From NCBI GenBank assembly GCA_009919175.1, contig RGCL01000029.1:1-33570 (forward strand): a DNA stretch of 33,570 nt, read 5' to 3'. The notes below the pieces were generated by a model. It had not been told where the DNA came from and did not search any database. It worked only from the letters and a program-made list of their open reading frames with translations. Each line of letters begins with the position of its first letter. Position 1 is the stretch's first letter. The stretch is from Betaproteobacteria bacterium. GTDB taxonomy: Bacteria; Pseudomonadota; Gammaproteobacteria; Burkholderiales; Burkholderiaceae_C. A program made the translations under genes and the position numbers. Positions 6,213 to 9,176 of this stretch are shown piece by piece.

Positions 6213-6860
6213 TCAATCCTTGGCGCTGCGGTGCACGGTGTCCCAGTTGGCTGGCCGTGGCATGAGGAATTTGGATTCGGGTGTCACCACGAAATAGTCG
6301 GCAGGGCCACCGCCGCGTGTGATGGGGCGGGCCTTGGCGGTTTGGTAGATGCCGTCCTCGAGAAGCTGGGTGTCGATGTGAACCCCCACCACTTCGCCCA
6401 GCACCAGCCAGGCTTTGAGCAAAGAGCCCGACGCATCCTTGAGCTGAACAATCTGGGTGAGCTTGCATTCCATGGACACGGGGCTTTCGGCCACGCGCGG
6501 CGCCTTGACCAGGCGCGAGGGCGCTCGGTGCACGCCCGCGAGGTCAAATTCGCTTTGGTCGGGGGGCAAGGCCGAGCACGACAGATTCATGGCTTGCGCC
6601 AGGGGCTCGGTGACCAGGTTCCAGACAAATTCGCCGCTGGCCTCCACATGAGCCAGGCTGTCTTTGCGCATCAGGCTGCTAAAGCCAATGATGGGCGGCG
6701 TGTAATTGAAGGCGTTGAAAAAACTGTAGGGTGCCAGGTTGGCCACACCTTGTGCGCTCAGAGAAGAAATCCAGCCAATGGGGCGGGGGGCAATGATGGC
6801 GTTGAGCGGGTCATGGGGCAGGCCATGGCCGTCTTTGGGTTGGTAAAAGTGGGTGGACAT
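6213..6860 (-). CDS. flavin-reductase-like FMN-binding split-barrel protein
   Basis: A 215-residue protein of the DIM6/NTAB flavin reductase family. These bind FMN in a split beta-barrel and either reduce flavin for a partner or act as oxidoreductases; the substrate here is unknown. Seen in the sequence: NAIIAPRPIGWISS near residues 18-31, then NLAPYSFFNAF, PPIIGFSS, and a C-terminal IDTQLLEDGIYQT segment, all typical of the family. The ATG at 6860 was chosen because a GGAGG sits ten bases upstream; an in-frame extension upstream would run through the neighbouring terminator hairpin. It is the first gene of a run continuing into recC and recB, with 10 bases between it and recC. Co-transcription is inferred; a functional link to RecBCD is not evident. 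Confidence 0.85.
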   Translation of the reverse strand: MSTHFYQPKDGHGLPHDPLNAIIAPRPIGWISSLSAQGVANLAPYSFFNAFNYTPPIIGFSSLMRKDSLAHVEASGEFVWNLVTEPLAQAMNLSCSALPPDQSEFDLAGVHRAPSRLVKAPRVAESPVSMECKLTQIVQLKDASGSLLKAWLVLGEVVGVHIDTQLLEDGIYQTAKARPITRGGGPADYFVVTPESKFLMPRPANWDTVHRSAKD

Positions 6861-6972: not shown

Positions 6973-8601
6973 TCAGCTCTTTTGGCCGCTGATGTTTTGC
7001 CACAGTTGCAAGTCACCCTGGGTGAGGCGTTCCTTGTTACGGGCTTCGCTTTCAAAGGCCTGGGCATCCGACAACAAAGACAGCTGGCGAATCTGACCCA
7101 GCAGGTGCTTGTAGTGCTCCACTGCATGGGCGGGGTTTTGGGCAATCTTGTGCAAGGGCAGCTGGCTGAGGTCGTCCATCACCTCGCGCTGCCGTTTGGC
7201 CTTGTTGATGAGGTTTTGGAGTTCGTCCTCGGTCAAGTGCAAACGCTTGGCTTCACGTCGCAACATGTCTTCCTCTGCCGCATCCAGTTTGCCGTCAGCC
7301 ATCATGTCGTAGAGCTGATTGACCAACTTCTCGCGGTCGATGCGCAACTGGTCTGAAAACGCGGAGGACAGCAAAGCCGCAGGGATGGCAAAAATACCAA
7401 TGCCCAACAAGGCCAGCACAATCGTCATGGCCCGGCCAATGGGCGTTACGGGCGAGATGTCCCCGTAGCCCACAGAGGCCAGCGTGATCACTGCCCAATA
7501 AATGGAGGCAGGGATGTTTTCAAATTTTTCAGGCTGGGCTTCGTGCTCGAACAAATAGCCCAGAGATGCCGTCAAGATCACCAGCAACAGCATGATGAAA
7601 GCCGACGCGGCCATGATGGGCCATTCCCGCTTGATCACTACCGCCAGGGTCCGGGTGGCATCGGTGTAGCGGGTGAGCTTGAGCAGTCGCATCAAACGGA
7701 AGACCCGCAGGAAACGCAGATCGAACAGGTGGTGCAGCAAGGCTTCGAGCAGGAAGGGGATCACTGCCAGGAAATCGATGACGGCGTTGAACGAGGTCAC
7801 ATACCTCATGCGCCCGACCACCTTGCCTTGGTAGCGCGGGTCCTCTGTGCATGAATACAACCTCAACAGGTATTCAATGGTAAAGACCCCGACCGCCACG
7901 GCATCGAGCACCAGGAATTCCAGGTTGAGCACGTATTCCACGCTCTCCACCGATTCGAACACCACTTGCAGCACCGAAATCACCACCCAGAACACCACAA
8001 AGTTGTCGATCAGGTCGTGCAAGGTGCCACTGGTTTCTGTGGGGTTGAGCAGGGCGTAGATTTTTTGTTTGAAGGTCTTGCCACGGTTGAGTTGAACAAA
8101 CTCGTGGTAGGCCGGGATGAGCACGCGAAACAGCTTGAGGATTCGCAGCAGTCGCAAGAACCGCAGCATGCGCAGATCGACGGGGAAGAAGGCATGCAGA
8201 TAAAACGGCGCAATGGAAGCCAGGTCGATCAGGGCAAAAGGACTGGTGATGTACTTGAGATAGGGGTGACGGCTGTTCTTGAACTCATGGTCAACCGGAG
8301 CCAGGATCAGGCGCAGCAAATACTCGATGGAAAACACCACCACCGACAGCACTTCGAAGAAGTGAAACAGGGCTTCGCGGCCTGTGTACACCTGGGGAAT
8401 GTGTTCGCAGATGAGAGCAAACAGGTTGGCCACAATCAAATAGCCAACCCACTTCTCTACGCGTTTGGCATAGTTGCCGGGGATGTTTGGATCCAGCAGC
8501 CAGGCGTACAACCACTCACGCCAAGGCAGATTGCTCGGGATGTTGGGCGGCTCGTGCTGGCCGGTGAAGTCTTTGGCAGAAATGCCTGAGGAATTGGACA
8601 T
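6973..8601 (-). CDS. potassium-channel-like protein with two voltage-sensor domains and one pore
   Basis: A 542-residue integral membrane protein. Two S1-S4 voltage-sensor modules lie in tandem, followed by a single S5-pore-S6. Each module has the S2 motif (VFSIEYLLRL about residues 89-98; VFTIEYLLRL about 239-248) and an S3 motif (YITSPFALID; YVTSFNAVID). Each S4 has six basic residues exactly every third position: R144, R147, R150, R153, K156, R159 in the first and R296, R299, R302, R305, K308, R311 in the second. The filter is TLASVGYGD (373-381), the K+ channel signature with A-S where T-T is usual. S6 is LGIGIFAIPAALLSSAF. A helical cytosolic tail with ADGKLDAAEED (435-445) resembles TerB-like or EF-hand segments. 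The ATG at 8601 has GGGAG upstream; a TTG at 8619 overlapping the previous stop is the alternative. K+ selectivity is inferred. Confidence 0.9.
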   Translation of the reverse strand: MSNSSGISAKDFTGQHEPPNIPSNLPWREWLYAWLLDPNIPGNYAKRVEKWVGYLIVANLFALICEHIPQVYTGREALFHFFEVLSVVVFSIEYLLRLILAPVDHEFKNSRHPYLKYITSPFALIDLASIAPFYLHAFFPVDLRMLRFLRLLRILKLFRVLIPAYHEFVQLNRGKTFKQKIYALLNPTETSGTLHDLIDNFVVFWVVISVLQVVFESVESVEYVLNLEFLVLDAVAVGVFTIEYLLRLYSCTEDPRYQGKVVGRMRYVTSFNAVIDFLAVIPFLLEALLHHLFDLRFLRVFRLMRLLKLTRYTDATRTLAVVIKREWPIMAASAFIMLLLVILTASLGYLFEHEAQPEKFENIPASIYWAVITLASVGYGDISPVTPIGRAMTIVLALLGIGIFAIPAALLSSAFSDQLRIDREKLVNQLYDMMADGKLDAAEEDMLRREAKRLHLTEDELQNLINKAKRQREVMDDLSQLPLHKIAQNPAHAVEHYKHLLGQIRQLSLLSDAQAFESEARNKERLTQGDLQLWQNISGQKS

Positions 8602-8615
8602 GTCTGTCTCCCGGT

Positions 8616-9176
8616 TCAAAATTCAACTTCGCCAATGCTGATCGGGTAACCCCCGCGATCGCACACTTTGATTTGAATGACGCGAGGCACATCCAAGGTG
8701 GTGTCTGGCGTCAGGCCCACCACATTGGTGGGGGTGGCAGAGCCGGGTGGGTTGGCGTCAACCCGCTTGAAGACCAAATGGCCCGAGGTCTTGAGGTTGC
8801 CCGGAACACATGCATCGATGGCCGCTAGCTTCTCGCCGGAGTAGGGGTTGAGCAGGCTGGCCACGTTGGGCATGGCTTGAATCGCCTCGAAGCAACCTTC
8901 CCAGGTGTGAACGGGCTGACCCTCTTCGCTAAGTTTGTGGCAAGGCCCCGATTTGTCCCCAGATTTCATGCGCACTTCATGCAGATCCTTGAGGGTACTG
9001 AGCCAGGTTTCGCCGTTGCGCTTGGCGGTTTCGGTCTTCAGACCTTCATTGAAACTGTGTCGGCCTACCCAGGCCACGCCGACCAGGGCCAAGATCAGAA
9101 GAAGGATGAATAACTTATCAGAAAGATTAAGGCCAGGGGATGGGGGTACAACTTGTGCAGGGTTCGTGGATTCCAT
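8616..9176 (-). CDS. uncharacterised single-span membrane protein with periplasmic domain
   Basis: A 186-residue protein I do not recognise. Residues 1-19 are polar, 20-37 form one hydrophobic helix (FILLLILALVGVAWVG), and the rest is hydrophilic and probably periplasmic. It has four cysteines there (79, 95, 123, 172), enough for two disulfides, and a LLNPYSGEK segment loosely recalling pilin-like proteins. It has no cleavable signal-peptide look, so it is probably anchored. Its stop codon (8616-8618) overlaps a possible TTG start of the channel gene and lies within the channel's translation-start region, so the two are very likely one operon behind the promoter at 9206-9234. A role as accessory subunit of the channel is inference from this arrangement only. 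Confidence 0.8.
   Translation of the reverse strand: MESTNPAQVVPPSPGLNLSDKLFILLLILALVGVAWVGRHSFNEGLKTETAKRNGETWLSTLKDLHEVRMKSGDKSGPCHKLSEEGQPVHTWEGCFEAIQAMPNVASLLNPYSGEKLAAIDACVPGNLKTSGHLVFKRVDANPPGSATPTNVVGLTPDTTLDVPRVIQIKVCDRGGYPISIGEVEF

Follow-up and report, generated by a model that had tools for sequence, protein, structure and literature searches.

A conserved sensor-sensor-pore layout in a predicted voltage-gated potassium channel of Burkholderiales

The channel gene and its neighbors

The window, by which we mean the whole stretch of 33,570 nucleotides analyzed here (contig RGCL01000029.1 of assembly GCA_009919175.1, a betaproteobacterium), carries on its minus strand a gene for a protein of 542 amino acids. 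The ATG start codon lies at 8601 and the stop codon at 6973-6975, a GGGAG stretch resembling a ribosome-binding site is found immediately 5′ of the ATG, and the plus-strand frame over 6973-8601 is interrupted by stops. A scan for promoters and terminators around the gene gave matches at chance level only. Pfam analysis of the protein returned Ion_trans twice and Ion_trans_2 once, and a whole-protein, single-chain structural model contained ten membrane helices and a pore helix. Together, the Pfam matches and the model give ten transmembrane helices in the order first sensor, second sensor, pore (Table 1). Confidence in the model was low at filter residues 378-381 (pLDDT below 50). The initial annotation had described two S1-S4 modules about 150 residues apart in one polypeptide, with a pore after the second only, and both statements were borne out. 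We regard the sensor-sensor-pore architecture itself as practically certain.

Table 1. Features of the channel locus, with residues numbered in the encoded protein
Feature	Position in window	Strand	Evidence
Double-sensor voltage-gated K+ channel gene (predicted), 542 aa	6973..8601 (stop included)	minus	ORF, Pfam, homologue coverage
First voltage sensor, residues 28-165, pre-S1 to S4	8107..8520	minus	
S4 of sensor 1: R144, R147, R150, R153, K156, R159	8122..8175	minus	Sequence, alignment
Linker joining the two sensors (S4 of the first, pre-S1 of the second), residues 161-191	8029..8121	minus	Alignment, model
Second voltage sensor, residues 178-317	7651..8070	minus	Pfam, sequence, alignment, structural match
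S4 of sensor 2: R296, R299, R302, R305, K308, R311	7666..7719	minus	Sequence, alignment
Pore domain S5-P-S6, residues 325-412	7366..7629	minus	Ion_trans_2, 64.9 bits (cut-off 22.5); structural match to Kv4.2 over residues 176-441
K+ selectivity filter SVGYGD, residues 376-381	7459..7476	minus	Sequence; same SVGYGD in 80/80 loci (best 80 of 447)
Helical C-terminus with weak TerB-like stretch	6976..7365	minus	18.3 bits (Pfam cut-off 24.4); model
Single-pass membrane protein, 186 aa, candidate auxiliary subunit	8616..9176	minus	Upstream of channel; Cys invariance; co-occurrence

Both S4 segments carry the series R-R-R-R-K-R with a basic residue at every third position (R144 to R159 and R296 to R311), as had been claimed from the sequence, and the two ladders lie 152 residues apart. 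A Kv-type charge-transfer center, made up of an S2 phenylalanine and glutamate and an S3 aspartate, is present in both sensors (E83, F90, E93, and D126 in sensor 1; D233, F240, E243, and D276 in sensor 2). No pore lies between the sensors, only some 30 residues of linker and pre-S1 helix. In the model, S4 of sensor 1 continues as a single helix over residues 143-171 and is followed by a helix over residues 177-185, the pre-S1 helix of sensor 2. Linker residues P163, A164, and N172 were invariant in 61 aligned sequences. The initial annotation had further called the two modules near-identical in S2, S3, and S4. The seven-residue string IEYLLRL is indeed common to both S2 segments, but the description was too strong, as only 42 of 134 residues are shared over the whole domain (about 31%; 30.4% in a second comparison).

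Sensor 1 by itself matches Pfam Ion_trans and is of the Kv type also by sequence match to the PDB. Modeled alone, it adopted a Kv-type sensor fold with a mean pLDDT of 85.1. A Foldseek search with that model gave a best E value of 3.3e-3 (none below 0.001), with a probability of 1.00 and a TM score of 0.65 by query length, and in a structural re-alignment (VIA) all 50 entries among the matches listed were voltage-gated channels. Taking the re-alignment, the Pfam match, and the PDB sequence match jointly, we conclude that sensor 1 is, by prediction, a Kv-type sensor.

Directly upstream of the channel gene and on the same strand is an open reading frame that ends 14 bases before the channel ATG. 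Its product has one hydrophobic helix, and Pfam reported no family above cut-off for its 186 residues. Inspected by eye, its topology is ambiguous: the flanking charges favor a C-terminus inside, and the invariant cysteines favor outside. Four cysteines showed no variation in 13 of 13 aligned proteins. Of 80 channel loci taken from a genome scan described below, 74 have a contig that extends 600 bases or more beyond the channel on its upstream side, and every one of these 74 has a relative of the upstream protein directly upstream; the other six were left out of the count because the contig begins too near the channel. When 61 relative genomes were searched, 34 matches were obtained in 33 genomes, and 33 of these adjoin a double-sensor gene, one of which is split by a stop; the remaining match, in genome G022, lies 92 bases from a contig end. 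The upstream protein was not found in G011, G012, G029, and G030 or in 24 genomes of other genera within the same 61, and in the loci that were fetched no single-sensor channel had it directly upstream.

At L053, L054 (3174), L055 (3501), L058, L068 (3308), L072, L174, L175, and L176, a double-sensor paralogue has no partner gene upstream, and the partner protein is thus not general to the double-sensor layout. The second copy in the window genome is among these paralogues.

Other channel genes occur near some relatives. Two small six-helix channels lie directly downstream of the double-sensor gene at L054:7823-9698 (minus strand) and at other loci. Their filters depart from VGYGD and read TSGYGN (or TAGYGN, GFGN) in one and SGWGN in the other. 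Of 62 loci whose contig continues for 2.2 kb or more past the channel, 33 have both small channels and 28 have neither; they do not lie beside the window gene. A channel gene with a TLESWA filter, which we take to resemble NaChBac, overlaps a double-sensor paralogue by 4 bases at five loci (L054:4763-5623, L055:5090-5905, L122:9615-10430, L159:11729-12559, and L163:9202-10017), of which L055 and L163 are apparently one contig fetched twice. Of nine double-sensor paralogue copies checked, two have a different gene upstream and two showed no upstream open reading frame. Four of nine sodium-channel open reading frames did not adjoin a double-sensor paralogue, one of them at a contig end. Directly downstream of the window channel, on the same strand, is a flavin reductase-like gene (6216-6860, minus strand; Flavin_Reduct, 73 bits).

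Conservation and distribution of the double-sensor layout

To survey homologues of the channel, 8,000 candidates were scored, 3,719 proteins passed an E value of 1e-3, and 120 of these were examined. Coverage of the 542-residue query was 95-100% in 119 of the 120 matches listed and 81% in the other (P0010, 461 residues), and both S4 ladders were present in all 120. Public databases name these homologues "ion transporter" or "voltage-gated potassium channel." A separate scan of one genome per species over 84,980 species gave 447 relatives, and each of the best 80 loci encoded two sensors and an SVGYGD filter. The presence of both ladders in all of the homologues listed and of the whole layout in all 80 loci rules out chance.

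Conservation of single residues was counted over 111 alignment rows, not all of them independent. In sensor 1, R3, R4, K5, R6, and the S3 aspartate were present in all 111 rows, and the S2 phenylalanine and glutamate were present in 110, the other row having a gap. R2 was arginine in 106 rows and lysine in 5, and R1 was arginine in 105, histidine in 5, and glutamine in 1. In sensor 2, R1 through K5 were present in all rows, and R6 was arginine in 110 and lysine in 1. S4 was the best-conserved part of sensor 1, with a mean column entropy of 0.67 bit compared to 1.0-1.3 for S1-S3. The initial annotation had argued that the first sensor is not decaying, and the near-invariance of both ladders, together with the constant layout of the best 80 loci, leads us to the same view. 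Such a pattern would be expected of a functional sensor under purifying selection.

Hosts of the best 80 relatives include Limnohabitans (Rim11), Polynucleobacter (UB-Piko-W3), Rhodoferax, Ramlibacter, Rubrivivax, Polaromonas, and many other Burkholderiales. Rim11 and UB-Piko-W3 carry no metagenome label and were therefore taken for isolates. The hosts apparently come from fresh water, as lakes (Erken, Baikal, and Lanier) figure in a number of bin names. Two metagenome bins, those of loci L156 and L169, are labeled Rickettsia typhi and Bordetella parapertussis, and their channel genes are of the type seen at Burkholderiales loci; L156 also has two companion channels of that type. Both labels are probably wrong.

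Within the genus of the window genome, the main type of double-sensor gene was found in 32 of 37 genomes, the copy in G020 being cut by a contig end. The remaining five gave weak matches only (G029), no match (G022), single-sensor relatives (G011 and G030), or a more distant copy that is truncated by the start of its contig (G012). The window genome itself carries a second double-sensor gene (L053:4874-6475 on G000:C147) that is 51% identical to the window gene, has glutamine in the R1 place of the sensor-1 S4, and is not preceded by the four-cysteine partner gene.

Wider samples were also searched, each of which counts the window genome in its n. In the family sample (E value of 1e-60), 2 of 150 genomes matched and both belong to the genus of the window genome, so that no double-sensor gene was found beyond the genus in that sample. 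In the order sample, 4 of 300 genomes matched at 1e-60, with double-sensor genes in G746 and G824 and a single-sensor gene in G773. In the class sample (1e-40), 34 of 370 genomes matched, and all but the window genome had single-sensor relatives; a double-sensor gene beyond the window genome was not seen among those 370. Finally, 23 of 397 genomes matched in the phylum sample (1e-45), with a double-sensor gene in G1123, of the same order. For the genomes sampled, the counts point to rarity of the double-sensor channel outside Burkholderiales but do not prove it. When viral contigs were scanned for the window protein, no match was obtained, and a viral origin was rejected on that ground.

The fetched relatives keep sensor 1 and its arginines, whose loss in homologues the initial annotation had named as a ground for refutation. 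In the models, loci, and literature covered here, neither this nor its other two grounds, a first module that fails to model as a sensor and an already described family of this architecture, was found. More distant single-sensor channels do lack the first sensor. These single-sensor relatives are 388-406 residues long and 41-48% identical to the window protein over residues about 150-540, and their natural occurrence means that sensor 1 is evidently not required for the existence of such a channel.

Origin of the first sensor and relation to known channels

A tree was built from 106 sensor domains over 140 columns. All 25 first sensors formed one clade (support 100/99) and all 25 second sensors formed another (98/83), and the second-sensor clade was sister to seven of the eight single-sensor long channels (99/96), with L075 apart on a long branch. 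The topology is compatible with a layout that arose once, ahead of the divergence of the paralogues. Family-wide, first sensors were on average 33.5% identical to second sensors and 36.2% identical to other single-sensor channels, and sensor 1 of the window had a mean identity of 36% and a maximum of 42% to 28 other single-sensor channels. The idea that sensor 1 arose by recent duplication within the gene was rejected, because the two sensors share so few residues and sensor 1 is closer to other single-sensor channels. Approximately unbiased (AU) tests did not reject one clade for first and second sensors (p = 0.153) or one clade for first sensors, second sensors, and single-sensor long channels (p = 0.347); thus, fusion and old duplication both stand. 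Fusion with the sensor of another channel is favored, not proven, with backing from the tree and, slightly, from identity. The small companion channels next door were also considered as a source of sensor 1 and rejected, as they group together (100/100) and apart from the first sensors, in a tree whose deep placing of them is weak (62/80).

In its parts the protein resembles the voltage-gated K+ channel superfamily. Both sensors have S4 basic residues at every third place, the S2 phenylalanine and glutamate, and the S3 aspartate, and SVGYGD conforms to the superfamily filter (S/T)-x-G-Y-G-D between S5 and S6. Classical Kv channels have one sensor per pore domain in each subunit. Unlike those six-helix channels (Kv4, Kv2, and KCNQ; Pfam Ion_trans), the window channel has two sensors for one pore, with an additional full sensor, about 150 residues long, in front; it also has no T1-type domain among its Pfam matches, and a bacterial membrane protein is encoded in linkage upstream. 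In two-pore channels (TPC) and in four-domain Nav and Cav channels, each polypeptide has more than one sensor, with sensor and pore alternating, whereas here two sensors precede a single pore. In Hv1 and the voltage-sensing phosphatases the sensor is not directly joined to a pore; in contrast, the window channel holds both sensors and a K+ pore in one chain, with no catalytic domain among its Pfam matches. The single-sensor channels of the same genus and order (L061-L067, L075, and L180) share the second sensor, the pore, and the long C-terminus, but they lack the first sensor and, in the loci read, a partner gene directly upstream. NCBIfam NF040645 (K_channel_Meth, hyperpolarization-activated voltage-gated K+ channel) matches residues 206-399 weakly, at 48.2 bits, far below the family cut-off of 300, and its 203-position model fits one sensor only.

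The initial annotation knew of no described system with this layout, and we likewise found no description of it in the portions consulted of the open-licence full-text literature in PMC. No such layout appeared in the portions consulted of a 2025 review of K+ channel modules (PMC12332018), a 2024 review of voltage sensors (PMC13095418), or PMC4878010. Judged from sequence, the channel appears to belong by its parts to the voltage-gated K+ channel superfamily and to represent a conserved new architecture by its layout.

A proposed role for the first sensor

We propose that the protein is a Kv channel whose gate is driven by sensor 2, with sensor 1 as an allosteric modulator and the partner as an auxiliary subunit, a reading that we consider reasonably probable. 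By analogy with other K+ channels, the subunit would presumably be tetrameric around a single pore, which would place eight sensors in the complex. Both S4 helices would move with membrane voltage, and sensor 2 would open the gate through its S4-S5 linker, like ordinary Kv channels. As the S4 of sensor 1 leads to no S4-S5 linker, sensor 1 is expected to influence sensor 2 rather than to operate the gate directly; its S4 helix, which runs to the pre-S1 helix of sensor 2, could thereby shift the voltage range or the steepness of that sensor. A modulating role fits the single-sensor relatives, because sensor 2 and pore can exist without sensor 1. The upstream single-pass protein may bind the complex as its auxiliary subunit, and the likely task of the whole would be to let K+ flow upon depolarization and so restore the membrane potential. 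A more elaborate version of this scheme, to which we give about one chance in three, is an eight-sensor K+ channel in which functional sensors, arranged as two rings that differ in voltage range, gate one pore, for example to give a steep or band-pass response, with the four-cysteine protein as auxiliary subunit; the position of some sister paralogues behind a NaChBac-like gene, with a 4-base overlap, would then reflect a paired Na+/K+ gene set for fast voltage swings.

Sensor 1 might instead be a docking or assembly module that holds the partner or neighboring subunits near the pore, with voltage response a minor matter. Such a role would suit both the existence of single-sensor relatives and the distribution of the partner gene, which is tightly linked to the main double-sensor group and was not found directly upstream of single-sensor channels in the fetched loci. 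Docking needs no charge ladder, however, yet R3 through R6 and the S3 aspartate of sensor 1 are invariant and the S2 phenylalanine and glutamate nearly so, and sensor 1 is kept also in double-sensor paralogues that have no partner. We consider docking unlikely. Stand-alone sensors that conduct or signal do exist, as in Hv1 and the voltage-sensing phosphatase, and sensor 1 could be a separate voltage device of this kind that signals to the upstream protein, or conducts protons or cations through a gating pore of its own, while hardly coupled to the K+ pore. The adjacent partner gene and the fact that sensor 1 ends in a linker, rather than in an S4-S5 linker to the pore, speak for such a device. 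Against it, the invariant residues of the linker to sensor 2 suggest mechanical coupling, and the position in the window channel that by eye corresponds to the S1 aspartate of Hv1 is occupied by Asn59; we hold a separate device to be quite improbable.

That sensor 1 is a decaying duplicate or the product of a chimeric assembly, and without function, would accord with two stop-interrupted double-sensor genes from the genus, one reported in G017 and the other in G006. In the G006 copy (L181:3772-5439) the stop falls between the two sensors, and the same genome has an uninterrupted copy (L182:5197-6930). Loss of function is contradicted by the layout of all of the best 80 of 447 loci, by the conserved ladders, and by the one well-supported clade that each sensor forms, and we give it almost no credence. 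Allosteric modulation of sensor 2 by sensor 1 is the reading that we retain.

How the number of sensors per pore affects a channel, and how sensors might be stacked to tune voltage dependence, appears to have been asked mostly with engineered channels. The double-sensor channel offers a natural and conserved case for testing the effect of extra sensors, for which the single-sensor relatives from its own genus could serve as controls and for which some named strains are apparently in culture. It further draws attention to an unexplored set of proteins in freshwater bacteria, made up of voltage-gated channels, their partners, and sodium channels, and bears on the uses that bacteria make of electrical signals.
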